A stretch of DNA of 64,000 nucleotides from Plantimonas leprariae (GTDB lineage Bacteria; Pseudomonadota; Alphaproteobacteria; Rhizobiales; Rhizobiaceae): the NCBI RefSeq assembly GCF_008802405.1, contig NZ_VZDO01000008.1, positions 62,001 through 126,000 of the forward strand, written 5' to 3'. The first letter of the stretch is position 1, and every line of letters begins with the position of its first letter. The notes beneath the pieces are model-generated. The model was given only the letters and a program-made list of their open reading frames with translations. It was not told the origin of the DNA and searched no databases. Positions 2,715-62,139 of this stretch are shown here, piece after piece. The translations under genes were made by a program, and so were the position numbers.

Positions 2715-3614
2715 ATGGCGCTCGACTGGGACAAGCTGCGCATATTCCACGCAGCCGCCGAAGCGGGCTCGTTCACGCATGCCGCCAACGCCCTGAATCT
2801 CAGCCAGTCGGCGATCAGCCGGCAGGTCTCGGCGCTGGAGCAGGAGATCGGCGCACCGCTCTTCCATCGCCACGCGCGCGGCCTCGTCCTCTCGGAACAG
2901 GGCGAGATCCTCTACCAGACCGCGACCGACGTGATGAAGCGGCTGGAGATGGTGCGCGCCCAGCTCACCGAGACGCGCGAGAAGCCGACCGGCAAGCTGC
3001 GCGTCACGACCACGGTCGGCCTCGGCTCCGGCTGGCTCACCGAGCGCGCCAAGGAGTTCCTCGAACTCTACCCCGAGCTCGAACTGCAGCTCGTCTTCGA
3101 CGATCACGGCGAGATCGACCTCACCATGGGACGCGCCGACGCCGCGATCCGCCTGCGCCAGCCGCAGCAGCCCGAGCTGATCCAGCGCCGGCTGTTCACC
3201 GTGCACCTGCACGTCTACGCCTCGCCGGGCTACATTCAGCGCTTCGGCACGCCGGAAACGATCGGGGAACTCGACCGCCACAGGCTGATCACCTTCGGCG
3301 AGCCGGCACCGCCCTATCTGCGCGGACTCAACGCCCTGGAGACGATCGGGCGGGCCGACGGGCACGCCCGCAACTCGATTCTGCAGATTAACAACCTCAT
3401 GTCGATCCGCTCGGCGATCGAGCGCGGCATCGGCGTCGGCCTCCTCCCCGACTACATGATCGACAAGGCCTCGAAGCTCGTGCAGGTGCTGCCCGAGATC
3501 GACTTGCCCACCTTCGACACCTACCTCTGCTACTCCGAGCAGCTCCGCAACGCCGCCAAGCTCAAGGTCTTCCGCGACTTCCTGATCTCGAAGGCGCGCA
3601 CCTGGTCGTTCTAG
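2715..3614 (+). CDS. vtlR: LysR-type regulator of the VtlR/LsrB family
   Basis: This is a 299-residue LysR-type regulator. The winged helix-turn-helix occupies about residues 5-64 (the helix region includes LSQSAISRQVSALE) and the ligand-binding domain the rest. The start MALDWDKLRIFHAAAEAGSF, its place directly after trxB, and the sRNA that follows all point to the VtlR (Brucella, Agrobacterium) / LsrB (Sinorhizobium) group. In those organisms the group controls small RNAs of the AbcR family, small proteins and redox or envelope genes. A strong ribosome site (GGAGG with further G) precedes the ATG. Unlike what I recall of characterised LsrB, which has several cysteines, this protein has one, in DTYLCYSE near the C-terminus; the ADCAIRL position reads ADAAIRL. 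Family placement is strong; target genes are inferred. Confidence 0.9.
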   Translation: MALDWDKLRIFHAAAEAGSFTHAANALNLSQSAISRQVSALEQEIGAPLFHRHARGLVLSEQGEILYQTATDVMKRLEMVRAQLTETREKPTGKLRVTTTVGLGSGWLTERAKEFLELYPELELQLVFDDHGEIDLTMGRADAAIRLRQPQQPELIQRRLFTVHLHVYASPGYIQRFGTPETIGELDRHRLITFGEPAPPYLRGLNALETIGRADGHARNSILQINNLMSIRSAIERGIGVGLLPDYMIDKASKLVQVLPEIDLPTFDTYLCYSEQLRNAAKLKVFRDFLISKARTWSF

Positions 3615-3694
3615 AAGCCATGCGCCTCACGCATGCCTGTCATGCTGCATCGCACATGGTTCGAGCCGTCCGGGATGTTAAGTTAAAGTGCAGT

Positions 3695-3800
3695 CGGATC
3701 GCGGGCGAATACCTCCTCCCATTCGTCCGTCCCGACCGTTTCCTCCCAAGGACGTCCCTGACGTCCTACTCAGCCGGGCCCCGCGCCCGGCTTTTTTTTT
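3695..3800 (+). ncRNA. Candidate AbcR / alpha-r15-type trans-acting small RNA
   Basis: No protein frame fits here, but the stretch has the anatomy of a trans-acting sRNA. A pyrimidine-rich segment carries two anti-Shine-Dalgarno motifs, CCTCCTCCCA at 3712-3721 and TTCCTCCCA at 3740-3748. A perfect 7-bp stem-loop follows (AGGACGT at 3749-3755, loop CCCTG, ACGTCCT at 3761-3767). It ends in an intrinsic terminator. In Sinorhizobium and Agrobacterium the AbcR RNAs, which repress many ABC-transporter mRNAs by pairing near the ribosome site, lie directly downstream of lsrB/vtlR, exactly this position. The 5' end is approximate: a weak TTCGAG/TTAAAG pair at 3660 and 3683 would start transcription near 3695. 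Only one copy is seen, where many rhizobia have two. Family assignment is from memory of structure and synteny, not a covariance search. Confidence 0.72.
3773..3800 (+). terminator. Intrinsic terminator of the AbcR-like RNA
   Basis: A perfect 7-bp GC stem (GCCGGGC at 3773-3779, GCCCGGC at 3785-3791) with a 5-nt loop is followed by nine T residues. It is the strongest intrinsic terminator in the window. Confidence 0.93.
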
Positions 3801-3883
3801 GCCGTAGCTTTCCTCGCAATACGATTCGCGCCAATCCCGAGCGTCCGGGTTGGGTCGTTTGCGGATTTGGAGGCTGTCGTTGC

Positions 3884-3911
3884 TTGAATGTGCTGGTGAC
3901 GTAGGCGTTCT
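3884..3911 (+). repeat. Imperfect direct repeat, copy A
   Basis: This segment matches 4520-4547 at about 22 of 28 positions without gaps, with a shared core TGGTGA and GGCGTTCT. It ends at the stop codon of the AT-richer membrane-protein gene, so the two copies bracket that gene. They may be decayed ends of one insertion sequence or a footprint of insertion. Confidence 0.4.
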
Positions 3912-4516
3912 TAGGCACGGCGTAGGGTTTTTGTCTCGTTTAGACCTGCAACGACAAACCCCCATGTAATCAGGAAGGTAATCAAACCGCTCATGAGACC
4001 AATGCGCAAACCAGAGCCATCACGTTCATTGAATGGCCTTTGAATAATATCCATACGATTTTTGCTGAGAATGACGGGAGCAAAACTTCCGACAATCTGC
4101 TTGTTTGGAAAGTAGTACGATTTATAATCCACAAATCTTCCTTCTGGCCAAGACGGCAATCGTAGTTTAAGATAAGTATATTCGTAAACGTGCCATGTCC
4201 GATCGGGATGCTGTGATTTGACTGATTCCGCCTGATCGCAAGGATAGACGCCGACAACAAGCGGAGGTCGCTTGTATCGTTCATAGCTTATTTCGCATTT
4301 CTGAACGATTCTGCTAACCAGAGCTTCGCCGTGTGGCCAGTAACTGTCTACCGCGTAGTGCAGGAGATCGTCTCCGAACGGTGAGGAGAAGAAGTAGAGT
4401 AGCGTGATTGCACCCGCGATTGCCGCCGATCTTTTGACGTATCTCATGGGCATGAAAGTATTTGGCAGACATGAACGGAGTTTTGCGAAAATACCTTCAG
4501 CATATAGGGATATCAT
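3911..4516 (-). CDS. Unrecognised two-segment membrane protein, probably acquired
   Basis: I do not recognise this protein. From the ATG at 4514-4516 it has 201 residues. A hydrophobic segment lies at about residues 30-50 (AAIAGAITLLYFF), followed by a roughly 120-residue hydrophilic domain rich in Tyr, Lys and Arg, and a second segment near the C-terminus (GLMSGLITFLITWGFVVAGL). Base composition is visibly AT-richer than both flanks and codon use is unlike the neighbours. The gene sits between two imperfect 28-bp direct repeats and next to a transposase remnant, so horizontal acquisition is likely. The start is uncertain: the frame is open to 4633, inside the IS remnant, and ATGs at 4453 or 4447 are also possible. 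None has a clear ribosome site. It is convergent with the sRNA. Confidence 0.55.
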   Translation of the reverse strand: MISLYAEGIFAKLRSCLPNTFMPMRYVKRSAAIAGAITLLYFFSSPFGDDLLHYAVDSYWPHGEALVSRIVQKCEISYERYKRPPLVVGVYPCDQAESVKSQHPDRTWHVYEYTYLKLRLPSWPEGRFVDYKSYYFPNKQIVGSFAPVILSKNRMDIIQRPFNERDGSGLRIGLMSGLITFLITWGFVVAGLNETKTLRRA

Positions 4517-4519
4517 CGT

Positions 4520-4547
4520 TTTAACGTGTTGGTGAACTTGGCGTTCT
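4520..4547 (+). repeat. Imperfect direct repeat, copy B
   Basis: This is the partner of 3884-3911 in the same orientation. It lies between the start of the membrane-protein gene and the transposase remnant. Confidence 0.4.
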
Positions 4548-4568
4548 CTCTGTTTTCGAAGGAACGGC

Positions 4569-5111
4569 ATGCAGACCGGTGAGCAATGGATGGTGCTGGC
4601 GCCTTTGATTGAGCCCTGTCGGCCTACCGGCAAGGCTCCGCCGCAGGATGTGCGGCGAACATCGAGTGCGATTCTTTGGCGGCACTAGAACGGCGCAACG
4701 TGGCGAGCGATCCCAGCCGAACTCGGACCGTGGCCGCGTGCCGCGCAGGTTCATCCGCTGGGCGCGGTTCGGCGTCTGAGAGAAGTTGCTGAACCTCGTC
4801 CAGACAACGGTGTCCGGTTCTAGACCGCCTGCCGGGCATACCGAAATGGGTCGTTACGGACCGCGGCTACACCAGCCACAGCTTCCGCCATCATGTTTGG
4901 AACATGGGCGCCCGGCCCGCCATCCCATCGCTGCGCCATGAGGCACCGGTCGCCTGCCCGGACTCGATCTACAACAATCGCAACCGGTTCGAGCGCCTCT
5001 GGGCGCGACTGAAGGGATGGCGAGCTATCGCCATTCGCTAAGAGAAAAATGCCATCAGCTTTCTCGGCGGTCCTCTGCCTCGCCGCAGCCCTCGATTGGC
5101 TCAAGCAATGA
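4569..5111 (+). pseudogene. Decayed IS5-type transposase
   Basis: Fragments of an IS5-family (DDE) transposase are readable in several frames. The N-terminus MQTGEQWMVLAPLIEP... runs into an early stop after the segment ending AILWRH. An internal piece follows (RFIRWARFGV). The conserved C-terminal block reads DRGYTSHSFRHHVWNMGARP and then YNNRNRFERLWARLKGWRA, and after another frameshift it ends AVLCLAAALDWLKQ with the stop at 5109-5111. The middle, with the catalytic aspartates, is shortened. Several frameshifts and stops make it inactive. Terminal inverted repeats were not recognised. Confidence 0.85.
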
Positions 5112-59835: not shown

Positions 59836-62139
59836 ATGGTCTCGCGCGCTTCGATCGTCGGCTTCCTCATCGTTCTTTGCCTATCGATCGTTCCGGCCAG
59901 CGCCCAGATTCCCGGCCTCCCGAAGCTCGTCGGCTCAGAGACGCAACCGGCCGACGCGACGAAGCCGGGCGAACCCGCCGACCGCCAGGCCGACGTCCAG
60001 GCGCTCGACCGCATCATCCAGCTGTTCAAGGACGACAAGCAGCGGACCGACTTCGTCGGCTCGCTGGAGCAGATGCGCGCCGGCCTCGTCATGCAGGGGC
60101 CGCCGGCGCCGGAACAGAACTCGGCGCTCCCTGCCGAGGGGTTGATCGGCGCCCTCGCCACCAACGTCGGGAAGGCGGTCGACGAGTTTCCGACGACCGC
60201 GCTCGGCGATCCGCCGCACATCAAGCTCGCGAACGCGATGACGGAGCTGCAGGACCGGGCCGCGACGAATTTCGGCGGCGAGGAGACGCTCGGCTTCCTG
60301 TCCTGGGCGCTGCCGGGCGTCGGCGTCGTCGCCGGCGTGATGCTCTTCCTGTCGCGGAACCGCTGGATCCGGTCGCGACGCACGATCCTGCGCCGGAAGT
60401 CGCAGACCCGGCTGCAGCTCCTCCGTCGCGTTTCTCTGAAGCTTCTCTTCGACCTCCTGCCCTGGTTCGGCGGCGTGGTCGCCATCGCGCTCTGGACGAC
60501 CGCCTTCTCGCATAGCTGGCGCGACACGCAGCTCTTCCTCGGGCTGACGACGCCGTTCGTGCTGCCGGCCCTGATCCGCCAGCTCTTCGGCTTCGGCCTC
60601 CTCCTGCTCGTGCGCAGCCGCGGCTGGAAGCTGGTGAACTACGCGCGCCTCAAGCTGCTGCCCTGGATCGGCATCCTCACCTCGGCCGGCGTCGCGGCGG
60701 GTCTGATGCGCGAATTCGCCGTGCGGCTGGTGATCGGCCGCAACGTCGCCGACGTCGCCTCGCTGGCGCTCGACCTTCTCACGGCAGGCCTCACGGTCCT
60801 CTTCGTGATGCGGCACCGGCGCACGGTGCGCAGCCTGATCGTCAAGGGCCGCCAGCGGCGGGCCGAAGGCGACCACGGCACCGGCGTGCTCGCCACCGTG
60901 ATCACCGCCTTCGCCAACTTCTGGCACGTCTTCGCGATGCTGTTCGTCGTCGCGAATGTCGGGGCGCGGCTGTTCGGCATCGGCGGCGACAACTTCTTCG
61001 AGGACGCGCTGTTCGCAGTGATGTTCATCCTCGCCGGCCTGTTCTTCCTCGCCTTCGCGAACGAGACCGTATCGCGGTGGCGAGAACAGCTCGGCCGCGG
61101 CCGCTCGACGGCGCGCAACGCGCTCGGCCGGCGCTATCTCGGCCTGTTCCACATCGTCTTGCAGATCGCGACCACCATCGTCGTCGCCATCGCCTGCATC
61201 GATCTCTGGGGCTTCCAGGTGGCGGAATGGCTCACCACCGCGTCCGGCAGCCAGGTGCTGCGGCCGGCGATTTCGATCCTCTTGGTGCCGCTGGTGGTCT
61301 GGCTGATCTGGATCACCGTCGACACGCTGATCGAGCACGCGTTGGCCCCGGTCGACAATTTCGGCCGGCAGCGCCAGCAGTCGGCTCGCATCAAGACGCT
61401 GCTGCCGCTGCTCCGGAACTTCGTCTTCGCCGCGCTCTCGGTCATCACGGTGATCGCGGTTCTGGCGAATATCGGCGTCAACGTCGCGCCGCTCCTCGCC
61501 GGCGCCGGCATCATCGGCATCGCGATCTCGTTCGGCTCGCAGCAGCTCGTGCAGGACGTCATCACCGGCTTCTTCTTCCTGTTCGAGGACGCGCTGGCGA
61601 TCGGCGACACGATCTCGACCGGCACGCAGGCCGGCGTCGTGGAAGGTATCAACATCCGCACGGTGAAGATCCGCGCCGGCGACGGGGCGCTCTATTCGGT
61701 GCCGTTCAGCCAGATCAAGGCGCTGCAGAACTCGTCGCGCGGCTACGGCATCTTCCAGGTCGCGGTCACGATCGGCTTCGAATCCGACGCCGACCAGGCG
61801 ATGGACATCATGCGCGAGATCGGCGCGGAGCTCCGGAGCGACCCGAAGTTCAAGTACGACATGCTCGCCCCGATCGAGATCTGGGGCGTCGACGGCTTCA
61901 GCGCCGACGGCACGGTGCTGAAGGGCGCGATCCGCTGCCGGCCGCTGCAGCAATGGGGCGTCGGGCGCGAGTTCAACCGCCGCCTGAAGCGGCGCTTCGA
62001 CGAGGACGGCATCGTCCTGTTCCGGCCGAAGCAGGTGATCGAGATCGCCGGCAACCGGCAGGAGCCTATGCCGGAGGAGAACGAGTTGCCGCCACCGCGG
62101 CAGAGGGCGGCGAACGGCGCGATGCCGCGCCCGGCCTGA
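59836..62139 (+). CDS. MscS-type mechanosensitive channel
   Basis: This 767-residue protein has a signal peptide (MVSRASIVGFLIVLCLSIVP), a periplasmic region of about 150 residues, about nine to eleven helices, and a C-terminal MscS core. The pore helix is GIIGIAISFGSQQLVQDVIT at about residues 555-575, then FLFEDALAIGDTI and the beta domain VVEGINIRTVKIRAGDG. It is of the large MscK/YbdG type and would release solutes on osmotic downshock. The ATG at 59836 begins the signal; the one at 59800 is less likely. Confidence 0.92.
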   Translation: MVSRASIVGFLIVLCLSIVPASAQIPGLPKLVGSETQPADATKPGEPADRQADVQALDRIIQLFKDDKQRTDFVGSLEQMRAGLVMQGPPAPEQNSALPAEGLIGALATNVGKAVDEFPTTALGDPPHIKLANAMTELQDRAATNFGGEETLGFLSWALPGVGVVAGVMLFLSRNRWIRSRRTILRRKSQTRLQLLRRVSLKLLFDLLPWFGGVVAIALWTTAFSHSWRDTQLFLGLTTPFVLPALIRQLFGFGLLLLVRSRGWKLVNYARLKLLPWIGILTSAGVAAGLMREFAVRLVIGRNVADVASLALDLLTAGLTVLFVMRHRRTVRSLIVKGRQRRAEGDHGTGVLATVITAFANFWHVFAMLFVVANVGARLFGIGGDNFFEDALFAVMFILAGLFFLAFANETVSRWREQLGRGRSTARNALGRRYLGLFHIVLQIATTIVVAIACIDLWGFQVAEWLTTASGSQVLRPAISILLVPLVVWLIWITVDTLIEHALAPVDNFGRQRQQSARIKTLLPLLRNFVFAALSVITVIAVLANIGVNVAPLLAGAGIIGIAISFGSQQLVQDVITGFFFLFEDALAIGDTISTGTQAGVVEGINIRTVKIRAGDGALYSVPFSQIKALQNSSRGYGIFQVAVTIGFESDADQAMDIMREIGAELRSDPKFKYDMLAPIEIWGVDGFSADGTVLKGAIRCRPLQQWGVGREFNRRLKRRFDEDGIVLFRPKQVIEIAGNRQEPMPEENELPPPRQRAANGAMPRPA

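Follow-up and report, generated by a model that had tools for sequence, protein, structure and literature searches.

What is encoded in the intergenic stretch directly behind lsrB in Plantimonas leprariae? A sequence-only reading of the window (the whole 64,000-nt stretch of DNA analysed here, positions 62,001 to 126,000 of contig NZ_VZDO01000008.1) had placed a candidate AbcR-type small RNA (sRNA) at 3695-3800. In our analysis, positions 3690-3800 on the + strand are most probably (probability roughly 0.88) a gene in its own right that encodes a trans-acting sRNA of ~111 nt, orthologous to AbcR and representing it in the Aurantimonadaceae. The sRNA is AbcR by descent and design, and it is atypical by the formal ar15 criteria.

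Genomic context of the candidate RNA

The genome that carries the candidate comprises 4.77 Mb in 39 contigs, and a comparison with plasmid records found no match. Within the window the gene order is trxB, lsrB, candidate RNA, orphan ORF, IS remnants, GST gene and aminotransferase gene. trxB (1650-2672, + strand) encodes a thioredoxin-disulfide reductase (NCBIfam TIGR01292 above cut-off), and lsrB/vtlR (2715-3614, + strand) a LysR-type regulator (PF00126 and PF03466) that is the presumed activator of the sRNA. Its product matches PDB chain 9HH1_A across the full length in a phmmer search (E 1.3e-127), 9HH1 being the A. tumefaciens LsrB deposit according to an excerpt of PMC11975290, and the closest named LsrB proteins found were from Aureimonas (88% identity), which marks the genome as Aureimonas-like within the Aurantimonadaceae. 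Judged by the 9HH1 match and by its place behind trxB, the gene upstream of the RNA is an LsrB/VtlR orthologue. The site that the earlier reading had given, behind lsrB/vtlR, is thus borne out by the gene order and the full-length 9HH1 match.

Several features of the neighbourhood were observed in passing. The LsrB of the window has only one cysteine, at position 272. A. tumefaciens LsrB has a C144-C273 redox pair (excerpt of PMC11975290); the partner of the redox-pair cysteine is an alanine in the window, and the cysteine at position 142 is missing from LsrB in 40 of 46 Aurantimonadaceae-type loci, so that a disulfide of the C144-C273 type could not form there. The gap between trxB and lsrB holds an inverted repeat, CTCCCGAACCGTCGGGAG (2683-2700), which extends into the G-rich lsrB leader and could hide the ribosome-binding site of that gene. 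On the other side of the RNA, the orphan ORF (240 aa, 3911-4633, - strand) had no NCBIfam or Pfam match, and decayed remnants of an IS4/5-family transposase (4569-5038; PF13586 above and PF13340 below cut-off) lie between the sRNA and the GST and aminotransferase genes.

Structure and covariation of the RNA

The region 3690-3800 has a minimum free energy of -50.5 kcal/mol, compared with a mean of -29.8 for shuffled sequences (z -6.71), and none of 200 shuffles was equally stable; the interval 3695-3800 gave a z of -5.98 against shuffles. The predicted fold consists of three hairpins. Hairpin SL1 (3690-3739), both helices of which contributed compensatory changes to the count below, bears in its loop an anti-Shine-Dalgarno stretch, CCTCCTCCC (3712-3720), including the aSD1/M1 motif CUCCUCCC (3713-3720), the name aSD1 being taken from an excerpt of PMC8844928. 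The aSD2 position, TTTCCTCCC (3739-3747), which contains the lineage-specific UUUCCUCCC, lies between hairpins 1 and 2. Hairpin SL2 (3749-3767) is an internal perfect stem, and SL3 (3772-3800) is an intrinsic terminator with a stem at 3772-3792 and nine T at 3792-3800, identified by the fold, by a terminator scan and by its covarying helix; the linker that precedes it reads ACUC. The two anti-Shine-Dalgarno motifs, the perfect internal stem and the perfect nine-T terminator described in the sequence-only reading were therefore all found. Its start at 3695, in contrast, has to be moved to ~3690 so as to take in the outer pairs of hairpin 1.

RNAalifold, applied to an alignment of 21 copies, predicted 21 pairs, nine of which showed compensatory changes. 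For SL1 and the terminator taken together (17 pairs; SL2 was excluded from the count because its alignment is poor), 95.0% of the cells were paired and nine pairs had changed on both sides. None of 500 shuffles reached any of the observed values, and slid versions of the structure dropped to 20-52% paired. Such conserved and covarying stems indicate that, by comparative sequence analysis, 3690-3800 is an RNA under structural selection and more than a terminator.

This bears on two other ways of explaining the stretch. It could code for a small protein, as ORFs can be called mechanically across it on both strands (3620-3904 on +, 3678-3965 on -), an idea that is hardly credible given that the RNA is 111-129 nt long in the 21 copies with length differences that are not multiples of three, that stops occur inside it on the + strand in 6, 8 and 9 of the 21 rows for the three frames, and that its base pairing is compensatory. 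Alternatively, it might be no more than the untranslated 3′ end of the lsrB mRNA with its terminator, without an RNA of its own. The RNA does lie 75 nt behind the lsrB stop codon with no other terminator-like site in between, and read-through from lsrB probably occurs and may contribute processed copies; however, hairpin 1 and its loop, which termination does not need, are conserved and covarying. Further evidence on this point comes from the upstream region and from the copies in relatives.

Family assignment by covariance models

The check that the sequence-only reading had proposed, a covariance search with the Rfam ar15 model, failed in that the window contains no accepted Rfam match. No family reached its gathering score in the window, nor in the loci that hold 20 of the 26 sibling copies, and a search of the genome itself with RF02345 (ar15, gathering score 40 bits) found nothing even at E <= 10. 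RF00519, also tried as the family, is suhB and not ar15, and gave no match. In permissive scans the best sub-threshold match was SorX (35.4 bits; gathering score 46.6), followed by ar14 (22.6 bits) and suhB (22.1 bits), with ar15 not listed; one further unnamed match of the overlapping clan CL00108, scoring below the 22.1 bits of suhB, is omitted from this list. Since suhB shares clan CL00108 with ar15, its weak score is no argument against AbcR. The lineage has diverged from the ar15 RNAs, notably at motif 2. Across the family, RF02345 does match 45 of 61 genomes at E <= 0.001, and many of the matched sites are directly behind lsrB.

A covariance model, R3, was built from 18 Rfam-confirmed ar15 RNAs of other genera, none of them Aurantimonadaceae. 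These were taken from 26 ar15 matches, five of which were never aligned, while three Rhizobium/Mycoplana rows of the other-genus alignment (A2) were dropped because MAFFT had misaligned their terminators; the structure of R3 consists of the hairpins predicted for one member, L099. Searched against the whole 4.77 Mb genome, R3 had a sole match at E <= 1, namely window positions 3694-3801 (39.5 bits, E 1.1e-7). With filters off, the sRNA scored E 1.5e-9 in the window, where the next best match reached 8.7 bits, and R3 recovered every one of the 27 lineage copies on which it was run (E 1.6e-13 to 0.0028). An earlier AbcR model, R2, in which the automatic structure was wrong, gave 17.8 bits and E 0.019 on the window and was replaced by R3. 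The assignment to the AbcR family made from structure and location is thus supported by an independent model together with synteny.

A further model, R1, was built from Aureimonas-type RNAs with the window copy included, so that its match on the window is not independent. Of 34 loci from other genera, 29 gave an R1 match at E <= 0.01 that lies on the lsrB side and no more than 1.5 kb behind the gene. Rfam was run on 20 of these 34 loci, all picked for having R1 matches, and all 20 carry ar15 above cut-off behind lsrB (26 matches in all). In genomes searched by both models, R1 hits at E <= 1e-5 coincided with RF02345 matches in 12 of 12 cases, a count that leaves out the same-lineage genomes G025, G027, G028 and G032; most R1 matches near E 1 across genomes look like chance. 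That the genome has a single copy, as had been claimed, agrees with the whole-genome searches, in which R1 (trained with the window copy) and R3 (independent of it) each gave one match at E <= 1.

The sub-threshold scores raise the question of whether the RNA could belong to another family with anti-Shine-Dalgarno motifs (SorX, ar14 or suhB/MmgR) and lie behind lsrB by chance. SorX is the best Rfam match below threshold, ar14 and suhB also score, and the near-identical pair of motifs is reminiscent of NfeR1. However, the SorX match is limited to 3743-3798 and deletes linker positions of the model, whereas R3 covers the whole RNA as the sole match of the genome, and synteny and box spacing are AbcR-like. 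We therefore regard membership of another such family as very unlikely, and an AbcR origin as the preferred reading.

Copies in related genomes

Among the 46 Aurantimonadaceae-type loci examined (L043-L088), a similar RNA is found 88-231 nt behind lsrB in 20, namely in 19 of the 20 loci labelled Aureimonas and in Consotaella, and in one more (L049) it lies 1.76 kb behind lsrB. R3 searches of the remaining 25 loci, covering up to 3 kb on each side (less in L057 and L061), yielded three matches at E <= 1, the best of 20.2 bits. This one is a weak second AbcR-like match in Jiella mangrovi (L053:6258-6380, - strand), ~2.4 kb past lsrB, whereas the main copy is on a different contig. Among the six genomes placed in the window's own genus, R1 gave a match below E 1e-20 in five and none in the sixth (G002, 65% complete). 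In the same-lineage genomes G025, G027, G028 and G032 the RNA is placed elsewhere, away from lsrB; as judged by eye, it directly adjoins in two of them the aminotransferase gene found close to the RNA in the window as well, and in a third it lies 1.3 kb from that gene. No literature on an AbcR of Aureimonas or Aurantimonas was among the matches listed, and Aureimonas is named in a conservation table excerpted from a paper on Paracoccus sRNAs.

The predicted VtlR/LsrB box and promoter region

The VtlR box consensus is GCAT-N3-TG-N3-T (excerpt of PMC7486931). An exact match to it, the palindrome GCATGCCTGTCATGC, is present at 3631-3645 on the + strand and starts 59 nt before the sRNA. Between box and RNA, an A/T-rich stretch at 3678-3689, delimited from the upstream sequences, would be the likely -10 and transcription start zone; a sigma-70 promoter scan ahead of the sRNA found no consensus match. 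Across the 27 lineage copies, a box at -75 to -49 is exact in 14 and within one mismatch in 24, as compared with a mean of 0.04 exact and 0.87 within one mismatch (maximum 5) after base shuffling of the same upstream sequences; the three copies that have none within one mismatch are L083, L085 and L148. Of 18 AbcRs of other genera, 17 have a box with no more than one mismatch, at -59 or -60. The suggested control of the sRNA by VtlR/LsrB is thereby backed by a predicted box that is conserved in position and that the sequence-only reading had not named.

The pattern GCATNNNWGNNATG has 27 matches in the window's own genome, as opposed to seven for a control pattern. One of the seven match contexts inspected is a palindromic VtlR-like site that starts 114 nt upstream of the start codon in a 47-aa DUF1127 gene (L171:1501-1758; G000:C22). 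In Brucella, VtlR controls AbcR2 and three DUF1127 proteins (excerpt of PMC12595884), so that, with one box before the sRNA and another before a DUF1127 gene, the predicted regulon shares both kinds of members with that of Brucella VtlR.

The upstream data also bear on the view that the stretch is nothing other than the tail of the lsrB mRNA. The missing sigma-70 consensus would fit it, whereas the distance from lsrB to the RNA varies from 75 nt (the window) to 231 nt over 21 copies with the box mostly kept ~59 nt before the RNA. Moreover, six relatives have the RNA apart from lsrB (0.8 kb and 1.8 kb behind it in two, elsewhere in four), and five of these six separated copies retain the box within one mismatch. 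We consider the untranslated-region explanation improbable, and the preferred reading remains a separate sRNA gene.

Change of the second anti-Shine-Dalgarno motif

In excerpts of PMC8844928, the AbcR aSD1 motif CUCCUCCC is in the SL1 loop, and aSD2, UUCCCCUC, lies between SL1 and SL2 in a stretch described as 'ultraconserved'. The aSD1 motif is kept in 20 of the 21 rows of our alignment, L044 being the one that differs. Motif 2, in contrast, reads UUUCCUCCC in the window where S. meliloti AbcR has UUCCCCUC. As a consequence of this change, CUCCCA (the M1 hexamer) occurs twice and GUUCCC (M2) has been lost in the lineage. The altered sequence is constant in these copies: UUCCUCCCA (3740-3748) is invariant in all 21 rows and in six of six further copies, that is, in 27 of 27 lineage copies. 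UUCCCCUCU, for its part, is kept in all 21 other-genus rows of A2 and, as judged by eye, in 22 of 23 further loci, the exception (L141) not resembling AbcR. In L030, which belongs to another family, the RNA behind lsrB reads UUCCUCUCU, and the motif is hence not wholly fixed outside the lineage; a swap of CUCCCA for GUUCCC was not seen in the sampled loci outside the lineage. Most targets of Brucella AbcR are under M2 (GUUCCC) or both motifs according to an excerpt of PMC5461406. With UUUCCUCCC in place of UUCCCCUC as motif 2, the sRNA probably has a set of targets different from the rhizobial one.

Proposed mechanism and possible targets

Carrying over the AbcR model with its aSD1 and aSD2 motifs (excerpt of PMC8844928), LsrB would bind the predicted box at 3631-3645 and activate transcription from ~3690. 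The transcript would end at the terminator and be bound by Hfq, for which the genome encodes a gene (hfq). The exposed CUCCUCCC of the SL1 loop and UUUCCUCCC of the linker could then base-pair at the ribosome-binding sites of mRNAs, mostly those for transporters and metabolism, and this pairing would block translation and speed mRNA decay.

Predicted pairing with leaders gave a mixed picture. The leaders of 24 periplasmic binding-protein genes paired no better with the motifs than those of 22 LysR genes (p 0.37), nor did they relative to 16S pairing (p 0.70), a comparison that is weak because start codons had to be guessed, with a bias towards those having a good Shine-Dalgarno sequence. It includes lsrB itself among the 22 LysR leaders and omits L157 (internal stop) and L158 (below cut-off) of PF13458 as well as L220 and L221 of PF00126. 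The lsrB leader ranked third among these 46 leaders for predicted pairing with the sRNA. Over the 46 loci, predicted pairing of the lsrB leader had a median of -17.4 kcal/mol where the RNA is adjacent (n=20) versus -10.5 kcal/mol elsewhere (n=26; p 1e-6), a difference confounded in that the two groups are different clades and a strong Shine-Dalgarno sequence pairs with any anti-Shine-Dalgarno motif. Pairing of the sRNA with the leader of lsrB is, at the level of these predictions, suggestive. As a tentative and rather doubtful extension, the second seed of AbcR, highly conserved elsewhere, might have been rewritten in Aurantimonadaceae as a copy of the first, together with a single gene copy, giving an RNA with two identical seeds and an altered regulon that includes lsrB, with negative feedback where the two are adjacent. 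This idea draws on the changed motif 2, seen in all 27 copies, and on the lsrB-leader pairing, which may only reflect phylogeny or Shine-Dalgarno strength.

Comparison with known systems

SorX (RF02784), which is of Rhodobacter origin, has a similar terminator and a CUCCC stretch in common with the window sRNA; however, only the 3′ half of the window RNA is matched, at a score under the gathering threshold, and SorX is not known to be syntenic with lsrB. NfeR1 is presumably an ar14 member, and the ar14 model gives the window sRNA 22.6 bits only. In excerpts of PMC8844928, NfeR1 of S. meliloti has several near-identical anti-Shine-Dalgarno motifs, as does the window sRNA, but there are three of them, and, unlike for AbcR, no Hfq interaction is stated there.

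The closest counterparts are AbcR1 and AbcR2 of S. meliloti, A. tumefaciens and Brucella (RF02345, ar15). AbcR follows lsrB/vtlR in A. tumefaciens, and in S. meliloti it is a neighbour of lsrB (excerpts of PMC7486931 and PMC3712013), and the locus by lsrB is common to the window sRNA. So are the three hairpins, aSD1 CUCCUCCC in the SL1 loop, a second anti-Shine-Dalgarno motif between SL1 and SL2, the intrinsic terminator and the upstream VtlR box, which stands ~59 nt ahead in the measured AbcRs of other genera. The window RNA also agrees with the ar15 definition of three hairpins with UCCUCCC in the 5′ loop (PMC3712013). It differs from AbcR in its score under the Rfam gathering threshold, in its motif 2 (UUUCCUCCC, with CUCCCA twice, instead of the GUUCCC-bearing UUCCCCUC) and in a short linker before the terminator. 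That is, the A/U-rich single strand before the terminator, well conserved in ar15 (PMC3712013) and likely the Hfq site, is reduced to ACUC in the window, whereas several siblings appear A/U-rich by eye. Finally, ar15 is present in multiple copies per genome in Rhizobiaceae and Brucellaceae (PMC3712013), AbcR forming a tandem pair, whereas there is one copy here, as in many of the genomes searched with RF02345. On account of its Rfam score, motif 2, A/U patch and copy number, we treat the sRNA as a variant form instead of an ordinary member of ar15.

The comparison adds Aurantimonadaceae, in which AbcR goes undetected by the Rfam models, to the predicted range of the LsrB-AbcR circuit. It also points to a natural seed swap, in which promoter logic and locus are unchanged and the sequence of motif 2 is different. 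As the swapped motif is the one serving most known Brucella targets, a change of the sRNA regulon could be tested by comparison between genera, in a single-copy system that is free of the redundancy of AbcR1 and AbcR2.
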